Assembly (NCBI RefSeq): GCF_003205515.1
Contig: NZ_KZ826489.1
Location: forward strand, 1-64,000
DNA length: 64,000 nucleotides
Reading direction: 5' to 3'
From: Litorivita pollutaquae
Lineage (GTDB): Bacteria > Pseudomonadota > Alphaproteobacteria > Rhodobacterales > Rhodobacteraceae
Made by a program: the position numbers and the translations under genes. Below the pieces are notes generated by a model that had not been told where the DNA came from, made no database searches, and worked only from the letters and a program-made list of their open reading frames with translations. Shown here one piece after another: positions 10,873 through 24,562 of this stretch (its first letter is position 1; the number at the start of each line of letters is the position of its first letter).

Positions 10873-12108
10873 TTAATCCAAAGCAGGCAAATCCGCCAGA
10901 TCCGGCAAATCACTGAAATCCGGCAGGTCACCCAGATCAGGTAGATCGCCCAGATCCGGCAACTCTCCCAGATCCGGCGCGTCGCTCTGCGGTTGCATAT
11001 CAAGACCGCCAAGATCGCTGAGGTCCGGCAAATCACCGCCACTGAGATCAGGGAGATCGCTCAGGTCGGGCAAATCATCGCCCGCCGGTTCGCGACCACC
11101 CCCACCATTCCCCCTGTCAGTTCCGCCCGCCATGTCAGGTAAGGACGCCTTCGCCGCCACAGGGGCCGCGACGCTTTTCTCGAACTCACCCGCCATCGCC
11201 ACGACATCTTCCGGCACCGACAACTGCACCCCTTCCGGCACATCCATCATCAATCGCACCGCACGAAAACCGTTCATCTGCCCCAACCGGCTTTCGGCCA
11301 GCTTATGTTTTTTGCCGACTTCGAGAATCGTATCGCTGAGCGCATCGCGCTCGATCGGCAAACAATCCCCCACTTTAAGCTTGCCCACCGCCGACAGGGG
11401 CAGGGTCACACGGCATAGGACAGCATCAATCTGCGCCGGAATCTTCATCAAAGCTTCGCTCAACAGCGCGCCGATGTCAGGCATTTTCTCGCCCTCGGCC
11501 AAGGGGATGCGCGGTTTTTCCACGACCGGCAATACGATGACCATCTCACCTTGTTTGGCGCCGGAAAACAAATCCAGATTCAGACGGATCAAATTGAAAT
11601 CCGGCGCTTCCAACGCCAATTCCATCATCCTTAAATTTTCCAACCTTACGCCGAAACGATACCCGCAGGTCCAATAGCCTTGCTCCTCTTCGGCGAGGTT
11701 CTCGGCAAACCGGTCAAGCACATCATCAACCAAAGGCGCAACCATCGCTGCGTCGGTTGGCGTTGGGGCGCGCGGATCGGCAGGTTTGGGCACCACGCGT
11801 CCGGTGGTTTGCACCTCGATCAAGGCGGCAAGCGTTTGAACATCAAAGCTGACCACGCCGCGCGCGCCATCAGGCCCGTCGAGCAAGACCAAAAGCGATT
11901 CGTTCGACATTGCTGCTGGCAGGGCATCTTGCTGGAACACCTGATGTTCGACGCCCGTCACAGCCAAAGGCATATCAAACAACTCGTCCGCCGATTTTGC
12001 CAAAGCCATACGGATCGCCTTGCCAAGCGACATCGCACGAGATTGATACACCTCGCGCGCTGCGCTTGCCTTGCGCCGTAAAACTGCATTTGAACGAGCT
12101 TCTGCCAT
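10873..12108 (-). CDS. FliM/FliN-family (SpoA-domain) protein with acidic repeat tail
   Basis: 411 residues. The body resembles the middle and C-terminal parts of the flagellar switch protein FliM. A CheC-like region (about 40-230) contains VSFDVQTLAALIEVQTTGR. It is followed by a SpoA-type domain (about 235-320) with LPLSAVGKLKVGDCLPIERD. The last 70-80 residues are an acidic repeat built from D-L-P-D-L and D-L-G-x-L-P units, encoded by a tandem DNA repeat. The canonical FliM N-terminal CheY-binding peptide is not seen. The start ATG 12108 follows TGAGGGGT; an open frame extends 34 codons upstream without a ribosome site. It sits downstream of a sensor kinase, away from any flagellar genes, so a role in a sensory complex rather than the rotor is possible. 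That is inference. Confidence 0.8.
   Translation of the reverse strand: MAEARSNAVLRRKASAAREVYQSRAMSLGKAIRMALAKSADELFDMPLAVTGVEHQVFQQDALPAAMSNESLLVLLDGPDGARGVVSFDVQTLAALIEVQTTGRVVPKPADPRAPTPTDAAMVAPLVDDVLDRFAENLAEEEQGYWTCGYRFGVRLENLRMMELALEAPDFNLIRLNLDLFSGAKQGEMVIVLPVVEKPRIPLAEGEKMPDIGALLSEALMKIPAQIDAVLCRVTLPLSAVGKLKVGDCLPIERDALSDTILEVGKKHKLAESRLGQMNGFRAVRLMMDVPEGVQLSVPEDVVAMAGEFEKSVAAPVAAKASLPDMAGGTDRGNGGGGREPAGDDLPDLSDLPDLSGGDLPDLSDLGGLDMQPQSDAPDLGELPDLGDLPDLGDLPDFSDLPDLADLPALD
10876..11079. repeat. Tandem repeat encoding the acidic Asp-Leu-Pro tail
   Basis: A coding mini-repeat about 200 bases long. Degenerate 15-18-base units of the type CAGATCCGGCAA on the plus strand translate on the minus strand as repeats of D-L-P-D-L with S/G-D spacers. 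Copies near the C terminus (about 10885-10980) are nearly identical at DNA level, so the copy number may vary between strains. Confidence 0.85.
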
Positions 12109-12175: not shown

Positions 12176-14878
12176 TTATTGCAGTGCAGAAATCCCGCCA
12201 ACTTCAACATTTTCCAACGGCACCGTCACACGAAAGGCCGCCCCGCCCTGCCCCGGCAGATAGAAGATCGTGCCGCCCAACCGCACCATGATCTTGCGGC
12301 AAATCGCCAATCCAAGCCCGGCGCCGCCGGCTTTTTGCTCTGCAAGGCGCCAAAATTTTTCAAAAATGATCGCTTGCACCTCGCGGGGGATACCACTGCC
12401 ATTGTCGATGAAATCCACCACGACGCTATCGCCGCTGCGTTCCGTGCGGATATCCAGATGCGGGGCCTCCGCGTCGCAATATTTTTGGACATTGGCGATC
12501 AGGTTGATGAACACCTGTGCCAAACGATCCAGATCGGTTTCGATCATCACGCTTTCCTGCGCCAAGCTGCGCGTGACGCGCAGGCGCGCGCCTTGGCCCG
12601 CCCCATTCACTCCCGCCGCCACGAGCGCATGGTCAATCACATCACCAAGCCGCCCATGCGCCAGATTAAGGCTCCCCAAACCATTTTCCAACACGCTTAG
12701 ATCAAGGAGATCATCCAACAGCCGCGTCAAACGAAGCGTCTCGTCATGGATGATCGAGGAATATTTTGCCTTCTCGGCCTCGGTCAGCCCCTCAGTGTCC
12801 CGCAGGATTTCCGAAAAGGCACGGATCGAGGTCATCGGAGTGCGTAATTCATGGCTGATCTGGCTCAAGAATGCGTCCTTTTGCACCGAAAGCTGGGTCA
12901 GCTTGTCATTGGCTTGGCGCAATTGCCGCGCCGTGCGGGTCAGCTCGCCTGATTTCGCCTCCAGTTGGCTGGAATATTCCATCATCTGCGCGGTTTCATC
13001 TGCCACGGCCATCAGATCTTCGACCGAAACCATCGCACCGCCGACGATCTGTGCCACCATCGCATGCGCCGTTGCCGCGCCAACCGATCCGGACAATTCG
13101 CGTTCCAGATGTTGCAGGAATTCTGATGTGGGTTCAGGAAGATACCCCGCCAGACCTTGCCCTTCGGCCTGCTCTTGGAACAATTTTTGCGCCTGGGTCG
13201 CGCCCAGAATACGTTGTGACATGACCATGAGGTCTTCACTTTGCGCCGCGCCAACCGACCAACCACGGTTGTTTTGCGCATCGTCCAGGGCATTGACAAA
13301 TTGCATACCTTGCAGCCGTTCCAACGGCTGCGGGAAGCTGACCAGAGATCCGATCACAAAGCCGGTCAAATTCAGCCCCATCGACCACATCACCGCATGC
13401 ACCAATGGATCCAATCCCTCGATGCCGAATAGCGCATAGGGCCGCAGCCAAGACAGGCCAAACAGCCCCTCGTTGAAAATCGTCTCGCTGAGCGCCACGC
13501 CGACCCCGAAGCTGGGCAAGAACATCACATAGGCCCACACAAAAAAGCCAACGGAAATGCCGATCATCGCGCCGATCCGCGTCGCCCCGCGCCAGAAAAT
13601 GCCGCCCAAAAGCGCCGGCAAAAACTGCGCCACCCCCGCAAAGGACACGATGCCGATGGCCGCCAAGGCCGTGCCGCCGCCGGACATGCGGAAATACAGA
13701 TAGCCAAGGAAAACCACGCCCACGATCGAAATCCGCCGGGCCAACAACACCACATGGCGCACGTCGCCGGATACGGTCGCACCGCCCCCTGTCATCATCA
13801 ACCAAATCGGCATCACCACATGGTTCGACACCATCGTCGACAGGGCAATCGAGGCGACAATCACCATCGAGGTGGCCGATGAGAACCCCCCTAAAAACGA
13901 CAAGAGCGCCAGCCCATCGCGCCCTTCGGCCAAGGGCAGCGTCAGCACGAAAAGATCTGGATTCGACCCCTTCGGCACCACCTCCAATCCGATCACCGCA
14001 ATTGGCAGAACAAAGAGGCTCATCAACATCAAATAGGTCGGAAACGCCCATGAGGCGAGACGCAGGTAGCTTTCGTCCTCATTCTCGACCACGAGTACCT
14101 GAAACATCCGGGGCAGGCACAAAAACGCCGCAGCCGACACCAAGATCAACCCGGTCCAACGTCCGCTATTGACCTGCCACACGCCGATCTCTGACGCGTT
14201 GATCCGTGCCATCACGGGACCAATGCCACCGCCCAATCCCCAAACCACGAAAATCCCGACCGCCAAAAGCGCGCATAGCTTGACCACCGCCTCAACCGCA
14301 ATCGCCATCACCACGCCGTGGTGGCGCTCGTTCGCATCCAAATTGCGGGTGCCGAAAACCACGGTGAACAACGACAATCCCAATGCCACCCAAAAGGCCG
14401 TCGATTGCTCACTGGGCAGGGCCGCAGCGCTGTCCTCACCGGCGAAGCTGGCGAAACTCAACGTCACGGATTGCAATTGCAGCGCAATATAAGGCGTGGT
14501 GCCGATCACCGACAAAAGAGTCACAAACACCGCCAACAGATTGGATTTGCCATACCGTGAAGAAATCAGATCCGCGACCGAGGTGATCCTTTGCTGCCGT
14601 CCGATCCGCACGATTTTGCGCAGCACCCACCACCATCCCACCATAACGATGGTCGGGCCGATATAGATTGCCACATATTCCAATCCGTTGCGTGCCGCCG
14701 ATCCCACCGCGCCGTAAAACGTCCATGCGGAACAATAGATCGAAAGCGACAAAGTATAGACCCAGGGCGAGCGCAAAAACGCACTGCGCCCGCGTTCCGC
14801 CGCGCGTTCTGCGCCAAAGGCCACAAGAAACAGAAACGCCACATAGGCAAGGCAGACCGCCACCAACAGATTGAGCAT
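12176..14878 (-). CDS. Sensor histidine kinase fused to a sodium/solute symporter domain (CrbS/CbrA-like)
   Basis: 900 residues. The first ~500 form a sodium:solute-symporter (SSS/SLC5) domain with about thirteen helices (start MLNLLVAVCLAYVAFLFLVA; the symporter segment GSAARNGLEYVAIYIGP). Next come a linker with a helical segment, the phosphoacceptor H-box QISHELRTPMTSIRAF near residue 676, and a HATPase domain with DNGSGIP and GGAGLGLAICRK near the end. No receiver is fused. Kinases of this build (CrbS in Vibrio and Pseudomonas, CbrA) tie carbon-source sensing to a transporter-like domain; CrbS controls acetyl-CoA synthetase. I prefer ATG 14878 (AGAGGA 8 bases upstream) over the GTG at 14881. 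It is preceded by a two-helix protein and a response regulator in one transcription unit. Confidence 0.92.
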   Translation of the reverse strand: MLNLLVAVCLAYVAFLFLVAFGAERAAERGRSAFLRSPWVYTLSLSIYCSAWTFYGAVGSAARNGLEYVAIYIGPTIVMVGWWWVLRKIVRIGRQQRITSVADLISSRYGKSNLLAVFVTLLSVIGTTPYIALQLQSVTLSFASFAGEDSAAALPSEQSTAFWVALGLSLFTVVFGTRNLDANERHHGVVMAIAVEAVVKLCALLAVGIFVVWGLGGGIGPVMARINASEIGVWQVNSGRWTGLILVSAAAFLCLPRMFQVLVVENEDESYLRLASWAFPTYLMLMSLFVLPIAVIGLEVVPKGSNPDLFVLTLPLAEGRDGLALLSFLGGFSSATSMVIVASIALSTMVSNHVVMPIWLMMTGGGATVSGDVRHVVLLARRISIVGVVFLGYLYFRMSGGGTALAAIGIVSFAGVAQFLPALLGGIFWRGATRIGAMIGISVGFFVWAYVMFLPSFGVGVALSETIFNEGLFGLSWLRPYALFGIEGLDPLVHAVMWSMGLNLTGFVIGSLVSFPQPLERLQGMQFVNALDDAQNNRGWSVGAAQSEDLMVMSQRILGATQAQKLFQEQAEGQGLAGYLPEPTSEFLQHLERELSGSVGAATAHAMVAQIVGGAMVSVEDLMAVADETAQMMEYSSQLEAKSGELTRTARQLRQANDKLTQLSVQKDAFLSQISHELRTPMTSIRAFSEILRDTEGLTEAEKAKYSSIIHDETLRLTRLLDDLLDLSVLENGLGSLNLAHGRLGDVIDHALVAAGVNGAGQGARLRVTRSLAQESVMIETDLDRLAQVFINLIANVQKYCDAEAPHLDIRTERSGDSVVVDFIDNGSGIPREVQAIIFEKFWRLAEQKAGGAGLGLAICRKIMVRLGGTIFYLPGQGGAAFRVTVPLENVEVGGISALQ

Positions 14879-14882
14879 CACC

Positions 14883-15263
14883 TCAGTCCTCTTGCCCTGC
14901 GCGAACCGCGCCCGCGCCGCTGCCTGTCTTGCCGGCCTGCGCCGCTCCGATGAACTCTGCCCGTGCCAATCCGCGTGCCATTACGACAGAGACAAGGATC
15001 AGGAGCGCCCAAATTCCAAAGACATAAAGCATCGCCGCCGAGGTTTCGACCGGCCCTGCGGACAGGCCGCCCCCCGCCGCCGCATCACCGCCAGAGGTCG
15101 CAATTTCGGCAACCGGTTGCGGCCAAAGCGCCGGCAACAGAAACAACACCATCCCGAGCACCGGAAGCACCCGCGCCCCGTCCATCAAGCGCCGCGCGCG
15201 ATAGGTTTTACGTTCTAAAAAGACCGGCCCTCGGCCCTCTGGGGGCGCAGAAGGCGGCCTCAC
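14883..15263 (-). CDS. Two-helix membrane protein coupled to the sensor kinase
   Basis: 126 residues, GTG start at 15263 whose first bases overlap the stop of the response regulator (GTGA, 15260-15263), so translation is probably coupled. A basic N-terminal part (ERKTYRARRLMDGARVLP) leads into helix one (VLGMVLFLLPALWP), an Ala/Gly-rich loop and helix two (MLYVFGIWALLILVSVVMA). Only 4 bases separate it from the kinase ATG. SSS transporters such as ActP have a small two-helix partner (DUF485, YjcH), so by analogy this could be the small subunit of the transporter-like kinase. I see no clear DUF485 signature, and the analogy rests on size and position. Confidence 0.75.
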   Translation of the reverse strand: MRPPSAPPEGRGPVFLERKTYRARRLMDGARVLPVLGMVLFLLPALWPQPVAEIATSGGDAAAGGGLSAGPVETSAAMLYVFGIWALLILVSVVMARGLARAEFIGAAQAGKTGSGAGAVRAGQED

Positions 15264-15628
15264 GGGGTCACCAATTCGCGCACCACCTCCAACACCTCCG
15301 CATTCGAGAAGGGTTTGGTCATAAACCGGCTGGCCCCGAAGCGTTCGGCCATTTCACGGTCGCGGCTTTGCCCGCGGGCCGTAAGCACCAACACCGGCAG
15401 ATCAGAGGTCGCGGCCCCTTCACGCAATTCGCGCAAGATATCGTAACCGCTTTTGCCCGGAAGCATCACATCAAGCACGACAAGATCGGGGGATTTCGCC
15501 TGCACCACCTCGACCGCATCTATGCCGTTGGAATGGGTGTCGACACGCCACCCGTCGCGGTTGAGCAAAAAACTGATCGCTTCGATGATGTTCGGCTCGT
15601 CTTCAATCAGAAGGACATGTTTGCCCAT
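15260..15628 (-). CDS. Receiver-only response regulator
   Basis: 122 residues, a single CheY-like receiver domain and nothing else. The acidic pocket is LLIEDEPN, the phosphoacceptor aspartate lies in LVVLDVMLPGKSG (about residue 51), the switch threonine in LVLTARGQ and the lysine in FMTKPFSN. ATG 15628 is preceded by GGGAGGGGG; the longer open frame upstream has no ribosome site. CrbR/CbrB partners of similar kinases carry an output domain, whereas this one has none. The signal must therefore pass on to another protein, perhaps the adjacent FliM/FliN-like protein or a regulator elsewhere. The gene overlaps the next one by four bases. Confidence 0.93.
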   Translation of the reverse strand: MGKHVLLIEDEPNIIEAISFLLNRDGWRVDTHSNGIDAVEVVQAKSPDLVVLDVMLPGKSGYDILRELREGAATSDLPVLVLTARGQSRDREMAERFGASRFMTKPFSNAEVLEVVRELVTP

Positions 15629-15699
15629 TTCACGCCCCCTCCCCAACTTGGTGAAACTCAAACTGTGATCCTCACTTAACACTACATTTTGCGACCAAG

Positions 15700-17040
15700 T
15701 CAAAACTCTTCGCTCATGATGGATGGCTCGCGGCGTCCGATACAGTCTTTTCTCGGGCAGATCCGGCACGTGACCCCGATCTGCCGCACGCCCTCCACCT
15801 GCCCCGCATCGGTCGTGGGCACATCGGTTTGCGCCGTTTTTTCGGGCACGATCAACATATGCGCCTCAACCAGCATCGGCGCATCAAACTGTTGCGGCCC
15901 GATGGGCTGCGCAATCGCATAGGTGTCAAATTGTCCGGCGCCGCGACCGCTTTGCCGGACCTGCATATGCAAGGCGGCCATCGGACGCCCCAAAGCAGAA
16001 TATAACGGCCAGAGCGGGCACGCGCCCCCGAACCGCGGTAACGGAAAACCTTCTATCGGTTTGCGAAAGGTTGTCGATCCAGAGGCATCACAGATCACCA
16101 AGCCCAATGGCACCGGCAGATGATCCGGCGCCAACATCGCCAGACGCCGCATGGCCGTGCCCAAATCCACATCGAACCGCCGCGCCATGCCCGCCGGATC
16201 AATCTGTGGCACTGCCGCAACCTCGGCCAGAACCGCGCCGAGCGGCATCCGCTGCGCATCTGCTGCATAGCGCTCCAGAAGCGCCCGCATCATCACCCGG
16301 GGCGAGGCCGAGGCAAAATTCCCGGCGTCGATCAACATGGAAATCGTCGCTTGCGGGTCGCCCGGTGCCTCCAATGCCGAAAAGTGAAAATCATGGGCCC
16401 GCAAAAACGCCTCGATTTCATCTTGCGGAGAACTGGCCCGCGCCTCATCGCCTTCGGCACGGTCGAGATAGGCCACCAGAGACTGTGCGCCCTCGGCCAA
16501 TCGCACCGCATCCTCATTCAGGTTCCGATGGAAGCGGTCGCGCCATTCCGGTTCGATTTCGCGGGTGTCGGCCAGAATGCCGGCGGTCGACCGGATCGCC
16601 GTCACCATCGACAACACCTCATGCATCGACGCGGCCAAATGCGGATCATGCGCCAATCGGTCGGTCAGAGTTTCGACGATATGCTCCAACTCACCAATCC
16701 GCCGATGCGCGCCCATCACCAATTGCGCCCATCCGGGAAAGCGCCCCGCGAATTCATCGGCGCGATCCCGCTCGGCCGCGGCCCCCAAAGGCGTGGCCGC
16801 CGCTTCGCGCAATGTGGCAATCAACGCCGCCTCGGCACCTTCGGACAAGAGCGCCTGTTCGACGCCCAAAGCCGCCGCCAGATCACGCAGCAATTTTCCG
16901 CCGATTCTGCGGCGGTTGTGTTCAATCAGGTTCAGATAAGACGCCGAGATATTCACCGAGGCCGCAAGTTGCGTTTGCCGCACCCCCAACATCAATCGTC
17001 GTTCGCGAATACGGCTTCCGGTAAGGGTCGACATCGACAT
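15700..17040 (-). CDS. Short-chain fatty acyl regulator, ScfR/PccR/RamB family
   Basis: 446 residues. The N-terminal XRE-type helix-turn-helix (about 8-63) reads RERRLMLGVRQTQLAASVNI, with SYLNLIEHNRRRIGGKLLRD as its second half. The long remainder is the ligand-binding region of the short-chain-acyl regulator family and ends in a cysteine motif, CRICPRKDC. Relatives (RamB, PccR, MccR) sense acyl-CoA or related signals and control acetate, glyoxylate-cycle and propionate genes. It is divergent from an ABC transporter whose cluster ends with acetyl-CoA synthetase, a fitting target. ATG 17040 has AGGGAA upstream. The downstream response regulator starts 71 bases after the stop, so co-transcription is possible. 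Confidence 0.88.
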   Translation of the reverse strand: MSMSTLTGSRIRERRLMLGVRQTQLAASVNISASYLNLIEHNRRRIGGKLLRDLAAALGVEQALLSEGAEAALIATLREAAATPLGAAAERDRADEFAGRFPGWAQLVMGAHRRIGELEHIVETLTDRLAHDPHLAASMHEVLSMVTAIRSTAGILADTREIEPEWRDRFHRNLNEDAVRLAEGAQSLVAYLDRAEGDEARASSPQDEIEAFLRAHDFHFSALEAPGDPQATISMLIDAGNFASASPRVMMRALLERYAADAQRMPLGAVLAEVAAVPQIDPAGMARRFDVDLGTAMRRLAMLAPDHLPVPLGLVICDASGSTTFRKPIEGFPLPRFGGACPLWPLYSALGRPMAALHMQVRQSGRGAGQFDTYAIAQPIGPQQFDAPMLVEAHMLIVPEKTAQTDVPTTDAGQVEGVRQIGVTCRICPRKDCIGRREPSIMSEEF

Positions 17041-17086
17041 GGCATTTTCCCTGCGCTTTCAACACGTTTCTGCGGCGCGGAAAAAC

Positions 17087-17129
17087 TTTTTTACAAATCA
17101 CGCCGCGTCATTGTACAGTTTTTTACAAA
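17087..17129. promoter_or_regulatory. Pair of identical 11-bp direct repeats in the regulator/transporter control region
   Basis: TTTTTTACAAA occurs at 17087-17097 and again at 17119-17129, 32 bases apart, close to three turns of the helix. They lie between the divergent ScfR-family regulator and the ABC transporter. The motif recalls the T-rich, CAAA-ending operators described for the RamB/PccR family (TTTGCAAA). A TTGCAAAA and a TTTGCACAAA occur further right, near 17154 and 17189. An operator function is inference. Confidence 0.5.
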
Positions 17130-17258
17130 AAAATCGTGCAATTCAAGGCTCTTGTTGCAAAATTTTCTATTCACGCGCGATACTGCATTTGCACAAACGT
17201 GCGTGCGGGAGGCGCAGAGGAGAGCGAACCCCGCATGAAAATGTAACGGGAGGATATA

Positions 17259-18605
17259 ATGTCCAATAGTAATTTCACGCGCCGCGGCGTGATCAAATCC
17301 GGCGCAATTGCCGGTGCTGGTGTCGCTCTGCCGACGATTTTCACGGCCTCTTCGGCCGCAGCTTACACGAACGAGCCCACCGGTGGATCAGTCACCTTTG
17401 GCTTTAACGTTCCGCAAACCGGCCCCTACGCAGACGAAGGCGCCGACGAGTTGCGCGCCTATGAGTTGGCTGTCGAGCACCTCAATGGCAACGGCGACGG
17501 CGGCATGATGAACACCTTCTCGTCCAAATCCCTCAAGGGCAACGGCATTCTCGGGAATAAGGTCGAATTTGTTACGGGTGACACCCAAACCAAATCGGAC
17601 GCGGCGCGCGCCTCGGCCAAATCGATGATCGAGAAAGACGGCGCCATCATGATCACCGGCGGTTCGTCCTCGGGCGTTGCTGTTGCGGTTCAAGGTCTGT
17701 GCCAAGAGGCTGGCGTCATCTTCATGGCGGGTTTGACCCACTCGAACGACACCACCGGCAAAGACAAAAAAGCCAACGGTTTCCGGCACTTCTTTAACGC
17801 CTATATGTCTGCTGCGGCGCTCGCGCCGGTGCTGTCCAAACTCTATGGCAATGACCGCAAAGCCTATCACCTGACGGCGGACTATACATGGGGTTGGACC
17901 CAAGAAGAGTCGATCAAAGCCGCAAGCGAAGCCCTGGGTTGGGAAACCATCAACGCCGTGAAGACCCCGCTGGCACAGACCGATTTCTCGTCTTATATCG
18001 CACCGGTTTTGAACTCCGGCGCCGATGTTCTGGTTCTGAACCACTACGGTGGGAACATGGTCAACTCGCTGACCAACGCGGTTCAATTCGGCCTGCGTGA
18101 GAAAGTTGTCAACGGCAAGAACTTTGAGATTGTTGTGCCGCTCTTCTCGCGTCTGATGGCGCGCGGTGCGGGTGAAAACATCAAGGGCATCCTTGGGTCC
18201 ACCAACTGGCATTGGTCGCTGCAAGACGAGGGCTCCAAAGCCTTTGTCAAATCCTTTGGCACCAAATACGGCTTCCCGCCGTCGCAGGCCGCCCATACGG
18301 TCTATTGCCAAACCCTGCTCTATGCGGATGCCGCCGAACGCGCGGGCACCTTTAACCCTTGCGGTATTGGCGAGGCGCTCGAAGGCTTTGAATTCGACGG
18401 GTTGGGCAACGGTAAAACACTATACCGTGCCGACGACCACCAGTGCTTCAAGGACGTTCTGGTTGTGCGCGGTAAAGAAAACCCGACATCCGAATTCGAC
18501 ATTCTTGAAGTGGTCGAAGTCACACCGGCAGAACAGGTTACCTATGCCCCCGACCACCCCATGTTTGCGGGCGGTGCATTGGGCAACTGTAACCCCGGCG
18601 CGTAA
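17259..18605 (+). CDS. ABC transporter substrate-binding protein (urea/short-chain amide or branched-chain amino acid type)
   Basis: 448 residues. The N terminus has a Tat-like signal (TRRGVIKSGAIAGAGVALP) with probable cleavage after ASSAAA, so the protein is periplasmic. The fold is the two-lobed periplasmic binding protein type I (FGFNVPQTGPYADEG at the mature start, ITGGSSSGVAVAVQGLCQEA in lobe one). A nine-base spacing from CGGGAGG supports ATG 17259. It heads the gene order binding protein, two permeases, two ATPases. The sequence belongs to the HAAT (hydrophobic amino acid uptake) superfamily, which also takes urea, amides and aromatic or short acids. The neighbours ScfR and acsA make a small carboxylic acid a reasonable guess, but the ligand cannot be read from sequence. 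Confidence 0.88.
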   Translation: MSNSNFTRRGVIKSGAIAGAGVALPTIFTASSAAAYTNEPTGGSVTFGFNVPQTGPYADEGADELRAYELAVEHLNGNGDGGMMNTFSSKSLKGNGILGNKVEFVTGDTQTKSDAARASAKSMIEKDGAIMITGGSSSGVAVAVQGLCQEAGVIFMAGLTHSNDTTGKDKKANGFRHFFNAYMSAAALAPVLSKLYGNDRKAYHLTADYTWGWTQEESIKAASEALGWETINAVKTPLAQTDFSSYIAPVLNSGADVLVLNHYGGNMVNSLTNAVQFGLREKVVNGKNFEIVVPLFSRLMARGAGENIKGILGSTNWHWSLQDEGSKAFVKSFGTKYGFPPSQAAHTVYCQTLLYADAAERAGTFNPCGIGEALEGFEFDGLGNGKTLYRADDHQCFKDVLVVRGKENPTSEFDILEVVEVTPAEQVTYAPDHPMFAGGALGNCNPGA

Positions 18606-18617
18606 AATACGCCAAAG

Positions 18618-18644
18618 ACCGGTCGCGCCCCGCGCGCGGCCGGC
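18618..18644 (+). promoter_or_regulatory. Strong hairpin between the binding-protein and permease genes
   Basis: ACCGGTCGCGC (18618-18628) pairs with GCGCGGCCGGC (18634-18644), mostly Watson-Crick, followed by TTCTTT. It stands alone in the 140-base gap after the binding-protein gene. Such hairpins often act as leaky terminators or RNA stabilisers that raise binding-protein levels above those of the permeases. Confidence 0.55.
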
Positions 18645-18745
18645 TTCTTTCCGCCAGCCTGCCAATGCGGCCATAGAACACGGCCCTTTCGTCCGCTGCG
18701 GAGCCTCTTTTAACCACCAAATAAAAAAACCCACGGGTGGGAACA

Positions 18746-19777
18746 ATGGACGCAATCATACTGCAAATTCTAAACGGGCTTGATAAAGGCTCGGCCTATG
18801 CGCTCATCGCGCTTGGGCTTACACTGATTTTCGGCACGCTCGGCGTGGTGAATTTCGCCCATGGCGCGCTGTTCATGATCGGTGCTTTCTGTGCGGTCAC
18901 CTTGAGCAGAATTCTGAACTTCAGCTTCGAGACCATCGACCCCACCAAAACCGATTTCCTCGGCAATCCGGCCAAGATCAAAACCACCTATGTGGAGCAT
19001 TGGTTCGGCGCGGATTTCGGTGCGACGATCATTGATTGGGCTGTGCCGCTTGCGATCCTGTTTTCGATCCCGATCATGATCCTGTTCGGTTTCATCGTCG
19101 AGCGCGGATTGATCAAACACTTTTATAAGCGTCCCCACGCGGACCAAATCCTTGTCACCTACGGCCTCGCCATTGTGTTGCAAGAGATCATCAAGGCGTT
19201 TTACGGTGCCAACCCGATCCCGACCCCTGCCCCCGATGTGTTCAAAGGCAGCTTTGATTTCGGCACGCTGCTCGGGTTTGAGCCAAATGCGATCATCTAT
19301 CCCTACTGGCGTCTGGTGTACTTCGCCTTCTCGGCGCTGATCATTTCGGGTGTCTTTGCCTTTTTGCGCTTTACCACCTTTGGCATGGTTGTACGTGCCG
19401 GTATGGCCGACCGCGAAACCGTGGGTCTTTTGGGTCTCAACATCGACAAACGCTTTACCTTCATGTTCGGGCTTGCCGCTGCGGTGGCCGGTGTTGCGGG
19501 TGTGATGTATGCGCCGATCAACTCGCCCAATTACCACATGGGTATGGATTTTCTGGTGCTCAGCTTCGTCGTGGTGGTTGTCGGCGGCATGGGTTCGCTT
19601 CCGGGCGCTGTGTTGGCTGGCTTCCTTTTGGGTATCTTGGAAAGCTTCGCCTCAATGAACGAAGTCAAATCGCTCATCCCCGGTATCGACCAGATCATCA
19701 TCTACGTCGTCGCCATTATCATTCTACTTACACGTCCGCGTGGCCTTATGGGTCGCAAAGGCGTGATGGAGGACTAA
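18746..19777 (+). CDS. livH: Branched-chain amino acid-type ABC transporter permease LivH
   Basis: 343 residues, about eight to ten membrane helices. The N terminus ILQILNGLDKGSAYALIALG followed by IFGTLGVVNFAHG is the LivH hallmark. The ATPase-contacting region FGMVVRAGMADRETVGLLG (about residues 213-231) and SFVVVVVGGMGSLPGAVLAG near the C terminus are family features. I use the ATG at 18746; an in-frame GTG nine bases upstream is possible. The next permease starts 3 bases after the stop. The segment between helices one and two (about 55-85) is longer than in Escherichia coli LivH, as in the urea/amide branch. Confidence 0.92.
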   Translation: MDAIILQILNGLDKGSAYALIALGLTLIFGTLGVVNFAHGALFMIGAFCAVTLSRILNFSFETIDPTKTDFLGNPAKIKTTYVEHWFGADFGATIIDWAVPLAILFSIPIMILFGFIVERGLIKHFYKRPHADQILVTYGLAIVLQEIIKAFYGANPIPTPAPDVFKGSFDFGTLLGFEPNAIIYPYWRLVYFAFSALIISGVFAFLRFTTFGMVVRAGMADRETVGLLGLNIDKRFTFMFGLAAAVAGVAGVMYAPINSPNYHMGMDFLVLSFVVVVVGGMGSLPGAVLAGFLLGILESFASMNEVKSLIPGIDQIIIYVVAIIILLTRPRGLMGRKGVMED

Positions 19778-19780
19778 TCC

Positions 19781-20983
19781 ATGCTGGGTCTGAACAAAAA
19801 AGACTTCTCGCTTCTTCTGGTCGTGGCGGCTTTGACGCTTTTCGCGCCCTTCATTCTCAACCCCTTCCCTGAAGGCTCTGGCATGGCGCAATTCAACGCG
19901 GGCTATCCCGATTTGATGCAGCGGTTCGTAATCTTTGGCATCTTTGCCATCGGGTTCAACATCCTGCTTGGCCTGACCGGTTACCTCAGCTTCGGTCACG
20001 CCGCTTTCCTCGGTGTCGGCTCTTACTCGGCGGTGTGGATGTTCAAACTGCTGTCCATGAACGTCATCCCCGCGATCCTGTTGGCGGTGGTTGTCTCGGG
20101 CCTCTTTGCCCTTGTTATCGGGTTTATCAGCCTGCGCCGCTCGGGGATCTACTTCTCGATCCTGACGCTGGCCTTTGCGCAGATGTCGTTCAACCTCGCC
20201 TATTCGGTGCTCACTCCGATCACCAATGGCGAAACCGGTTTGCAATTGACGCTCAATGATCCGCGCGTTCTTGGTCAATCTGCGACAGCGGATGGGTCGA
20301 TCCCTGTGACCTCGCTGTTCGGACTTGAAATGCGCTCGACATTCGAGATGACCCTCGGCCCATGGCTGTTTCAGTTCAACGCAGGTTACTACCTCTGCGC
20401 GCTGATCCTGCTGCTCAGCTTCTATTTGTCGATCCGCATCTTTCGCTCGCCGTTCGGCTTGATGCTGCGGGCGATCAAATCGAACCAGACGCGGTTGAAT
20501 TACACGGGCTTGAATGCGCGCCCTTACACATTGGCAGCCTTTGTTATCTCGGGGATGTATGCCGGTTTGGCCGGTGCCTTGATGGCGTCGATGGATCCTC
20601 TTGCGGGCGCCGAACGCATGCAATGGACCGCATCGGGCGAAGTGGTTTTGATGACCATCCTTGGCGGTGCGGGCACTTTGATCGGTCCGGTTTTGGGTGC
20701 AGGTTTCATCAAGTATTTCGAGAACATCTTCTCGAAGATCAACGATACGGTTCTGCACGGTTGGTTTGAATTCATGCCCGACGGTTTGGAAAACCTCATT
20801 GTGGGCATTTTGCACCCGTTCATCGGCAAAGGATGGCATCTGACGCTTGGCCTGTTGTTCATGCTGGTGGTGATCTTCTTGCCCGGCGGTCTGGTCGAAG
20901 GCGGTCAACGCATTGCCAAATTGTTCCGCCGCAAAAAACCGGATGACGCTGGCGACAACGCTCAATCCACCCCTGCAGAATAA
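19781..20983 (+). CDS. livM: Branched-chain amino acid-type ABC transporter permease LivM
   Basis: 400 residues with about ten helices. Family segments visible are [20 protein letters not shown] (about 65-84), [19 protein letters not shown] and [36 protein letters not shown] and a basic C-terminal tail ([15 protein letters not shown]) follow. Together with LivH it forms the membrane channel. The central loop after [10 protein letters not shown] is long, which is common for members outside the leucine-specific branch. Stop and next start (livG) are 12 bases apart with AAGGAGACGG between them. Confidence 0.92.
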
Positions 20984-20995
20984 GGAGACGGTAGA

Positions 20996-21751
20996 ATGGG
21001 TATTCTAGAAGTCAAAAACGTCAACAAGCGCTTCGGCGGGTTGCAGGCCCTAGGCGATGTGAACTTGTCGGTTGCCGAGAATTCGGTGCATGCGATCATC
21101 GGGCCGAACGGGGCGGGGAAATCTACCCTTCTCAACTGCCTCGTCGGCAAGTTGATCCCCGACACCGGATCGGTGATGTTCGACGGGCAATCGGTTTTGG
21201 GGCGCACGCCCTATGAGATCAACCAAATGGGCATCAGCCGCGTCTTTCAAACACCCGAGATCTTTGGCGATCTCACGGTGATGGAAAACATGATGATCCC
21301 CTGTTTTGCCAAACGCGACGGTGCCTTCCGCCTGCATGCCATTGCGCCGACCGACGACGAAAAAGAGATCGTCGAGAAAGCCGAGCGCATGCTTGAGGAT
21401 ATGAACATGGCCGGTAAACGCCACATGCCGGCGGCGTCGATGTCGCGCGGCGACAAGCGGCGGCTCGAAATTGGTATGTGTCTGGCGCAAGAGCCGCGGC
21501 TTTTGCTGCTCGACGAGCCGACGGCGGGCATGGCGCGCGCCGATACCAACAACACCATCGACCTGCTCAAACAGATCAAGGACGAACGCGATATCACCAT
21601 CGCGATCATTGAACATGACATGCATGTTGTGTTCTCCTTGGCCGAGCGGATCACCGTTTTGGCCCAAGGCACGCCTTTGGTCGAAGACACGCCCGACAAC
21701 ATCAAAGGCCATCCCAAGGTGCGCGAAGCATACCTTGGCGAGACGGCCTAA
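20996..21751 (+). CDS. livG: ABC transporter ATP-binding protein LivG
   Basis: 251 residues, a complete ATPase: Walker A GPNGAGKST (about 37-45), a Q-loop in SRVFQTPEIFGD, the signature region MSRGDKRRLEIGMCLAQEP and Walker B LLLLDEPTAGM. The switch histidine is in IIEHDMHVVFSLAERI. The signature reads S-R-G-D-K instead of the canonical L-S-G-G-Q, a known variation in this LivG branch. It energises transport with LivF as a heterodimer. Confidence 0.92.
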   Translation: MGILEVKNVNKRFGGLQALGDVNLSVAENSVHAIIGPNGAGKSTLLNCLVGKLIPDTGSVMFDGQSVLGRTPYEINQMGISRVFQTPEIFGDLTVMENMMIPCFAKRDGAFRLHAIAPTDDEKEIVEKAERMLEDMNMAGKRHMPAASMSRGDKRRLEIGMCLAQEPRLLLLDEPTAGMARADTNNTIDLLKQIKDERDITIAIIEHDMHVVFSLAERITVLAQGTPLVEDTPDNIKGHPKVREAYLGETA

Positions 21752-21765
21752 GCGGAGGACGCGAT

Positions 21766-22521
21766 ATGAACGTCAAACCCGATTTTTCAAAGGGCAAGAA
21801 CCTTGCCGAAACCGCCCCGGCTTTCCTGTCGATCTGGGAAATGGAAAGCTATTACGGCGAAAGCTACATCGTGCAGAACATTTCGTTCAACGTGCATGAG
21901 GGCGAGATCCTTGCGCTTTTGGGCCGCAACGGCGCAGGCAAAACCTCAACCCTGCGCTCCATCGCCCGTATGGATAGCCCACAAGTCACCCACGGCGAGA
22001 TCTGGCTCGATCACCAACCCTTGCACACGATGGTCTCCCATCAGGCATCCTCGCTCGGCATCGCCTTGGTGCCTGAAGACCGCTGCATCATCCCCGGCCT
22101 AACGGTCGAGGAAAACCTGCAACTGGCACAGATCGCCCCGCCGATCGGATGGTCGATCGAGCGGCTTTATGAATTGTTCCCCCGCCTGGGCGAACGCCGC
22201 AAGCAAGAGGGCGTGACCTTGTCCGGCGGCGAACAACAGATGTTGGCGATTGCCCGCGCCTTGGCCCGCGACATCAAGGTACTTTTGCTGGACGAACCCT
22301 ACGAGGGCCTCGCCCCCGTCATCGTGGACGAAATTGAAAAAACACTGCGCATCATCAAGGAACAGGGCATCACCACCGTGATCGTCGAACAAAACGCTGT
22401 GCGTGCATTGGAATTGGCCGACCGTGCGGTTATTCTCGACACGGGCGGCATCGTCTTTGATGGTTCGGCCGCCGAGGTCCTTGGCAACGAAGAATTGCGC
22501 GCCGAATACTTGGCGATTTAA
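21766..22521 (+). CDS. livF: ABC transporter ATP-binding protein LivF
   Basis: 251 residues: Walker [10 protein letters not shown] (about 52-60), signature [18 protein letters not shown], Walker [14 protein letters not shown] and the switch segment [16 protein letters not shown]. An N-terminal extension of about 20 residues ([20 protein letters not shown]) precedes the first strand; it is somewhat long for LivF. GGAGGACGCGAT lies just before the ATG. It is the last transporter gene; acsA begins 91 bases later in the same direction. Confidence 0.92.

Positions 22522-22612: not shown

Positions 22613-24562
<1,950 letters not shown>

Follow-up and report, generated by a model that had tools for sequence, protein, structure and literature searches.

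Locus organization

The first 64,000 nucleotides of contig NZ_KZ826489.1 of Litorivita pollutaquae (GCF_003205515.1), here called the window, carry a putative acetate-responsive regulatory system at 12176–17040. Four minus-strand genes encode an ScfR-type transcription regulator, a receiver-only response regulator, a two-helix membrane protein and an SLC5-STAC sensor kinase. The ScfR-type regulator contains a segment that resembles the DHp domain of histidine kinases. The genome comprises 3.42 Mb in 28 contigs.

The kinase gene (12176–14881, minus strand) encodes 901 amino acids with SLC5, STAC, DHp (His677) and ATPase domains. The membrane protein gene (14883–15263, minus strand) lies directly upstream of it, 1 bp away, and its product is CbrX-like in place and topology. 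The receiver gene (15260–15628, minus strand) encodes 122 amino acids with Asp53. Its open reading frame was listed from 15769, which is too early; a conserved start, MGKHVLLIEDEP, is found at 15628, so the gene does not overlap ScfR and leaves a 71-bp gap. The ScfR gene (15700–17040, minus strand) encodes an HTH, the DHp-like segment (residues 130–197 with His140; 16450–16653, minus strand), a shortened DIII, a GAF-like part and the [4Fe4S] cysteines C341, C425, C428 and C433. The initial annotation described five minus-strand genes, a FliM-like gene among them, packed with four-base overlaps or short gaps and divergent from a transporter-acsA cluster. Order, strand and divergence were confirmed, but the four-base overlap applies to receiver and membrane protein only, and the FliM-like gene lies outside 12176–17040.

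A 218-bp region (17041–17258) separates ScfR from the divergent plus-strand cluster. The first five genes (17259–22521) encode an ATP-binding cassette (ABC) transporter of the urea/branched-chain amino acid class, with a twin-arginine translocation (TAT)-type binding protein, two permeases and two ATPases. The binding protein and first permease were identified by Pfam/NCBIfam and the rest by reading. No paper on the substrate of this transporter was found in the literature search, PMC9007349 included. The sixth gene is acsA, for acetate-CoA ligase (about 22613–24562; TIGR02188, 1033.6 bits over cut-off); the genome has no second copy at E ≤ 1e-200.

Conservation of the cassette

Two sets of loci were compared. 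The near set comprises 80 loci from named records; they ranked best among 221, which biases the set to near relatives. Its nearest loci include those of Shimia, Thalassovita and Roseovarius, all Rhodobacteraceae. The wider set holds 40 loci out of 196 sampled family genomes, with flanks up to about 10 kb. Short-flank loci (L092–L120, 29 loci) were not used for linkage counts, and the L126 stretch ends before acsA. L001 was left out of the neighbourhood database and L019, which has an internal stop, out of the kinase alignment.

Every near locus (80/80) has ScfR, receiver, membrane protein and kinase in this order, a conservation far beyond chance. The initial annotation had asked for a search for co-occurrence and named a lack of linkage in related genomes as refuting; linkage of these four genes is conserved there, so this refutation does not apply. 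Receiver and membrane protein overlap by four bases in 59 of the 80 loci, with 10 more lacking a scorable start, and the gap between membrane protein and kinase is −4 to +2 bp in 68. The transporter is found in 74 near loci, a FliM-type gene in 72 and a true acsA within reach in 60; the last count leaves out six weak AcsA matches (22–32% identity, opposite direction). The wider loci contain the receiver in 40, ScfR and membrane protein in 38 each, the transporter in 27 and an adjacent acsA in at least 8. The kinase was found in 192 of the 196 genomes, one copy each. Linkage to acsA is looser and not universal; the constant unit is kinase, membrane protein, receiver and ScfR.

The DHp-like segment of ScfR

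ScfR matches Pfam ScfRs (PF09856; 58.4 bits, cut-off 24) and HTH_3, and all 31 members examined match PF09856. The extra segment lies between HTH and DIII. By hhalign, ScfR residues 88–188 align to kinase residues 627–725 (E 9.5e-5, probability 58.7) with His140 on His677. Counts were made on 122 ScfR orthologues, after 12 second reads (L253–L264) were removed from 134. A hidden Markov model (HMM) of the kinase DHp matched 107 of the 122 at E < 0.01 (best 2.3e-8, 27.1 bits) and none of 17 ScfR paralogues. A separate search of four ScfR sequences gave 34.9, 31.2, 20.8 and 20.0 bits. His140 is kept in 120/122; in the remaining two the read is cut off, and the full gene has His at this place. Residues 130–197 thus combine a HisKA/DHp profile match with a phosphoacceptor-type His.

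The segment could be cut from 117 of the 122 orthologues, and in all 117 it is nearer to the DHp of the partner-kinase family than to 19 CrbS-type DHps. Mean scores were 83.8 for the own kinase family versus 51.9 for the CrbS type (shuffled mean 39.1, maximum 57), and the result holds with equal numbers of references. Five ScfRs scored 61–107 (means) against the DHp of own-family kinases versus 36–45 for five other kinases of the genome. The segment was probably copied from the partner kinase family.

The AlphaFold model of ScfR has a mean pLDDT of 76.5, with block means of 67–83 over residues 131–190 and helices at 133–158 and 164–197. The hairpin matches the HK853 DHp (4jav_A 250–320; Z 9.4, root-mean-square deviation [rmsd] 2.7 over 70 residues), and residue 140 falls at about HK853 260, the phosphorylated His. 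This fold match is not decisive by itself because unrelated hairpins reach Z 8.5.

Residues 203–439 of the model match the PrpR fold (Z 20.3, rmsd 3.5 over 223 residues). C341, C425, C428 and C433 align to the cluster cysteines of PrpR, each kept in 119–121 of the 122 orthologues. In PrpR the [4Fe4S] ligands are Cys363, 447, 450 and 455 (PMC6765138). Like other members of the ScfR/IsaR group (PrpR, PccR, RamB), ScfR has an HTH, a GAF-like part and CX2CX4C with a fourth Cys. Unlike them, it has a DHp-like insertion, and in the Rhodobacteraceae family its CoA-binding DIII is shortened. About 70 residues of DIII are missing relative to PrpR, and the model is free of strands between 205 and 313. 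The CoA-stacking His319 of PrpR corresponds to Arg298, and Arg is found in 118/122. The initial annotation called the protein an acyl regulator; the ScfR family assignment stands, while the acyl label needs care for the Rhodobacteraceae-family proteins, with DIII cut and the stacking His replaced.

Co-inheritance and far relatives

The DHp-type ScfR follows the alpha-type short form of the kinase, one of the kinase types described below. It is present in 16/16 kinase-bearing versus 0/4 kinase-lacking family genomes of a first set. A second set has it in 15/15 genomes with the alpha-type short kinase and 0/15 others, giving 31/31 genomes with this kinase and 0/19 without it. The 15 others include G006 and ten genomes in which only a long kinase was found, with at most ordinary ScfRs. 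Two genomes whose ScfR lies away from the kinase (G042, G152) are covered. Kinase type was assigned by tree for G006, G403, G245, G279, G428, G008, G461, G211 and G429 and by score for the rest. For family genomes of the second set, an unbroken match to the profile was taken to indicate the DHp, in place of reading each sequence.

In three other families of the class (L301–L303), transporter, ScfR, receiver, membrane protein and kinase occur together, though in L303 ScfR and receiver are about 4 kb apart. Their ScfRs have both the DHp segment and a full DIII part with the stacking His. Comparison of these sequences suggests that the DHp was first acquired by a CoA-sensing ScfR, whose CoA part was then shortened in the Rhodobacteraceae family.

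The FliM-type gene (10873–12108, minus strand; PF01052) lies downstream of the kinase, with a likely start at about 12108 and a gap of about 67 bp. Apart from its product and one FliN-size protein (C5:80176), the genome encodes no protein of FliM type. It stands outside the locus of the FliN-size protein and adjoins the sensory kinase in most relatives. The initial annotation counted it in the run; it is probably a flagellar neighbour and not part of the switch.

One alternative is that a single promoter receives two inputs, so that ScfR would regulate acsA in the ordinary acyl-CoA-dependent way and the kinase and receiver would act elsewhere, for instance on the flagellar switch through FliM or on another kinase. 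ScfR relatives do act alone on CoA esters (PMC10370305, PMC6765138), a FliM-type gene adjoins the kinase in most near loci, and the far relatives retain full DIII and the stacking His. The family ScfR, however, has a cut DIII and Arg for the stacking His. Left unexplained would be why ScfR has a DHp segment at all, why that segment is so near to the partner kinase, and why co-inheritance is strict, also where the genes are unlinked. This alternative is considered rather unlikely.

The sensor kinase and its partners

Pfam places HisKA at 668–734 and HATPase_c at 783–890 of the kinase. No PAS and no receiver domain were found in Pfam at E ≤ 0.1, and HATPase_c ends at 890 of 901. A profile of residues 4–613 aligns to residues 7–590 of PDB entry 10ed_A (SLC5 and STAC, E 1.9e-81). 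The entry is labelled merely "histidine kinase" and is taken to be the CbrA SLC5-STAC structure because Y51, S53, W55, A56, F71, Y75 and K196 fit the pocket residues stated for CbrA (PMC13022988). Lys201 of the kinase, invariant in the alignment, corresponds to CbrA K196, which fills the sodium site. The kinase is the sole SLC5 kinase of its genome, since the other 17 profile matches cover the kinase core alone. A second SLC5 kinase that could serve as CrbS was looked for in the genome search, and none was found.

A phylum-wide search separated two forms. Short forms match the kinase profile over its full length, and their open frames span about 840 to 1030 codons. Most others, the long forms, match the SLC5-STAC part only, in frames of mostly 1100 to 1420 codons that also include six near 990 codons and one of 942. 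In a 42-sequence tree, 19/20 long forms are in one clade (support 0.93) and the CbrA-like L300 stands apart. The 12 alpha short forms make a separate clade (0.99); a joint short clade has just 0.68. The tree contains no named CrbS, and long forms near acsA (8 of 20) stand for it. The DHp motif is HELRTP or HEFRTP in 22 short forms, SHELRTP in the family of the window's kinase, and HDxxQP(L/F)NA in 19/20 long forms.

CrbS/R systems are described in Vibrio and Pseudomonas (PMC5436829) and also in Sinorhizobium fredii; their CrbR proteins are LuxR-type regulators (PMC9100948). The system in the window resembles them in its SLC5-STAC kinase and in acs as a predicted target. It differs in the lack of a PAS and of a receiver in the kinase, in DHp type, in a partner receiver with no DNA-binding domain, in a DHp-bearing ScfR as predicted output, and in the ABC transporter as a second predicted target. 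With no PAS, no kinase receiver, another DHp type and a separate clade, the sequences indicate that the set is not a CrbS/R system. Were it one with a degenerate regulator, the kinase beside acsA would fit, as would pocket residues Y49, W53 (8/8) and T54 (7/8) common to it and the acsA-linked long kinases. The receiver-only partner in every near locus and the coexistence of a short and a long kinase in G245, G279 and G429 argue against this, and it is regarded as highly improbable. The shared pocket residues are compatible with acetate as ligand, nothing more. The proposal of the initial annotation, a differently wired acetate switch with no DNA-binding response regulator of CrbR type, gains support from these comparisons.

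The membrane protein is predicted by AlphaFold to have helices at 13–46 and 74–114 (mean pLDDT 70.5). Residues Y21, R22, R24, R25, P34, L40, P44, F82 and W85 are invariant in 31 sequences. No Pfam or NCBIfam family matched above cut-off. The best PDB match of its profile was OTOP2 (E 0.0081), with no CbrX chain among the matches listed. CbrX is a two-helix peptide bound to CbrA by cryo-EM and dispensable for growth on histidine (PMC13022988). The set resembles CbrXA/CbrB in a kinase with no C-terminal receiver, an upstream two-helix peptide with overlapping genes, and the Na2-site Lys (K196, here K201). It differs in having no PAS, in a lone receiver in place of the sigma-54 regulator CbrB, and in Thr54 for pocket residue A56.

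The receiver matches Pfam Response_reg (3.6e-26). Residues E9, D10, D53, T83 and K105 are invariant in 31 sequences, and mean column identity is 74%. An adjacent receiver of 121–131 amino acids is found in all 80 near loci, with 122 amino acids in 61. It is conceivable that the ScfR DHp is a dimerization hairpin, or that the kinase contacts it directly, by heterodimer or His140 phosphorylation, while the receiver is a phosphate sink. Kinase and ScfR do share a domain type, and a phosphate-sink role was proposed for the CrbS receiver domain (PMC5436829). Against this stand a receiver gene as constant as the kinase (80/80, 40/40) with high column identity, and a near-invariant His that a mere hairpin would not need; the idea is judged improbable.

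Short kinases of the other type come mostly from what are presumed to be other classes of the phylum. A receiver-only gene lies nearby in 8/10 of their loci, and no ScfR was found nearby in any of the 10 loci read. In five loci (L304, L305, L307, L309, L311) the receiver-only gene and the kinase gene are separated by a gene of ~700 codons whose product has an N-terminal membrane part. One family member (G006, L312) has a kinase that groups with this other type. Its receiver gene lies downstream of the kinase gene, acsA is ~4 kb away and a DHp-type ScfR is absent, as if the whole system had been replaced.

The double box and its predicted targets

In the divergent region, aligned over 75 sequences, two TTTACAA boxes lie 32 bp apart. 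In the window the double box (17085–17128, plus strand) has TTTACAA at 17090 and 17122 and is the predicted ScfR site. Exact TTTAC-N27-TTTAC occurs in 59 of the 75 regions. The double box occurs once in the 3.42-Mb genome at up to 1 mismatch, with 0 in a reversed control. A position matrix was built from the 59 exact double boxes. It scored 12.8 to 71.5 in all 27 wider loci in which the transporter faces ScfR. Where ScfR faces something else, scores were −19.3 or less in 10/11 loci and 8.6 in L134. The highest score elsewhere in the 40 wider loci was 5.1. ScfR autoregulation was considered as the reason for the box and rejected because the box is missing upstream of an ScfR with no facing transporter (10/11, L134 weak). 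The far relatives L301 and L303 scored 41.9 and 24.2, and L302 −24.2.

The box moves with the transporter. Of 13 kinase-bearing genomes that lack linkage, four have the transporter at another place; the other nine and 4/4 kinase-lacking genomes had no binding-protein match at E ≤ 1e-90. The box accompanies the relocated transporter in 4/4, once weakly. In G152 and G042, whose kinase clusters lack ScfR, the transporter is beside ScfR (scores 41.8 and 25.2), and in G135 and G020 it has moved without ScfR (7.2 and 20.4).

The box also moves with acsA. The scan covered 30 of the 37 acsA matches of the genome search. The best site of the locus lies 40–400 bp upstream of acsA on the same strand in 20 of the 30. 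Without the two acsA genes that sit within the ABC operon (L196, L223) and the three of kinase-lacking genomes, there are 25 free-standing acsA genes of kinase-bearing genomes; the box is top-ranked in 20, whereas by our arithmetic the target region is of a size that would yield about 1 (3.7% each). Six of these 20 genomes (G088, G073, G062, G094, G156, G046) had no binding-protein match. Among three kinase-lacking genomes (G018, G133 and G165), G018 has a weak site at rank 2, and ranks of 24 and 42 are found in the other two. A stricter pattern gave 25 matches in 19 of 33 genomes, 21 of them at transporter or acsA, versus 4 in the reversed control. The 4/4 kinase-lacking genomes had no match to it.

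RamB of Paracoccus has two near-identical boxes with an 18-bp spacer, in an 80-bp probe with 17 bp on each side (PMC10370305), a layout that gives 14-bp boxes and a 32-bp period by our arithmetic. The system in the window is like RamB in this period and in its predicted acetate target. Binding of ScfR to the double box is predicted from the sequences. The box could instead be bound by another regulator, such as the one other ScfR of the genome (a paralogue on contig C1) or the PAS-LuxR protein at 25.8 kb. Yet the box is near acsA in kinase- and ScfR-bearing genomes and not top-ranked in the three kinase-lacking ones, although G018 has the ScfR paralogue, and its period matches the ScfR layout; another regulator is unlikely. 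ScfR and the PAS-LuxR protein were the suppliers of DNA binding named in the initial annotation. The double box tracking acsA and transporter, together with co-inheritance, strongly supports ScfR as the likely DNA-binding part. The PAS-LuxR protein is probably not a component; it was matched in 5/80 and 3/69 loci, counts that are weak evidence against it because most loci stop short of that gene.

A sigma-70-like promoter of the transporter-acsA operon is predicted from our own reading at 17155–17184 (plus strand; TTGCAA, 18 bp, GATACT). A promoter-like block, TTGTTGCGAAATTTTC ... cgATAATg, is conserved in the alignment of 75 sequences. The same alignment shows a strongly conserved TTTGCAC-N4-GTGC dyad (window 17188–17202) that directly follows the predicted −10. 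The classical ScfR box, TTTGCAAA, was sought in the divergent region and is exact in 1/74 relatives (L030) and absent from the window. Extra regulon members are not proposed; the four other matches to the stricter pattern equal the reversed-control matches in number. By open reading frame reading they adjoin three LacI-type/sugar-isomerase pairs and one glycosyltransferase-like pair. L247, L249 and L233 have similar double boxes of 32-bp period (CGTTTGCA ... CGTTTACAA) beside LacI-type/sugar-isomerase pairs. In L217 (G133), which lacks kinase and ScfR, the sequence that precedes acsA is similar to the window's transporter ATPase gene and has no double box.

Proposed mechanism

It is fairly probable that the cassette is a switch for acetate, or a short monocarboxylate, rewired through a kinase-derived domain in a transcription factor. 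The SLC5-STAC kinase with its two-helix subunit would sense the transported substrate and autophosphorylate on His677. The lone receiver would take over the phosphoryl group at Asp53 and may then dock on, or phosphorylate, the DHp-like segment of ScfR at His140, recognizing the copied DHp as it does that of the kinase. The segment was missed by the initial annotation and is proposed as the docking site for the lone receiver. ScfR would bind the 32-bp-period double box as two dimers and activate the joint operon of ABC transporter and acsA or, if acsA lies elsewhere, that gene by itself.

Spo0B and ChpT are phosphotransferases with a DHp fold and no active kinase domain, in which His is the partner of receivers. 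Unlike in these proteins, the DHp here sits inside a DNA-binding transcription factor. A literature search for a DHp-bearing ScfR or the cassette, with most subscription papers out of reach, yielded only a remark on Pden_1785 of Paracoccus denitrificans, an ScfR-network member that adjoins two-component system genes (PMC10370305). The available part of that paper reports no deletion of Pden_1785 and no DHp in it. Pden_1785 probably belongs to the DHp-ScfR family.

Several points weigh against the rewired switch. PF00512 matches only 7/31 ScfR members, which is weak alone, and helical hairpins match each other easily. The [4Fe4S]/GAF part of ScfR is kept, so a metabolite input is conceivable. 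The far relative L302 has no scoring box. Several of the 20 acsA sites score low with 31-bp spacing, five free-standing acsA genes (G104, G084, G002, G042, G117) have no top-ranked site, and 10 of 29 kinase-bearing genomes have no match to the stricter pattern. G175 (L149, L280) encodes the kinase, the receiver and a DHp-type ScfR, yet neither acsA (E ≤ 1e-200) nor the transporter binding protein (E ≤ 1e-90) was found in it, and it has no double box for ScfR. Pocket residues are the sole evidence on the ligand, and the switch as a whole is read from sequence and predicted structure.

A more specific account is about as likely as not. The transcription factor would have taken in the DHp of its own upstream kinase, and the lone receiver would relay phosphate from His to Asp to His. 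Far relatives would keep both DHp and acyl-CoA/[4Fe4S] inputs, and the Rhodobacteraceae-family factor would be mainly a phosphorelay output. If true, this would define a two-component output of a new class, since the protein that binds DNA would bear a kinase-side domain instead of a receiver. The intermediates with DHp and full acyl-CoA sensor would show a way for a metabolite-controlled regulator to come under a phosphorelay. The switch would provide a testable regulator for acsA and the transporter in Shimia, Roseovarius and other relatives, and would explain, for one large family, how an output-less receiver controls genes.

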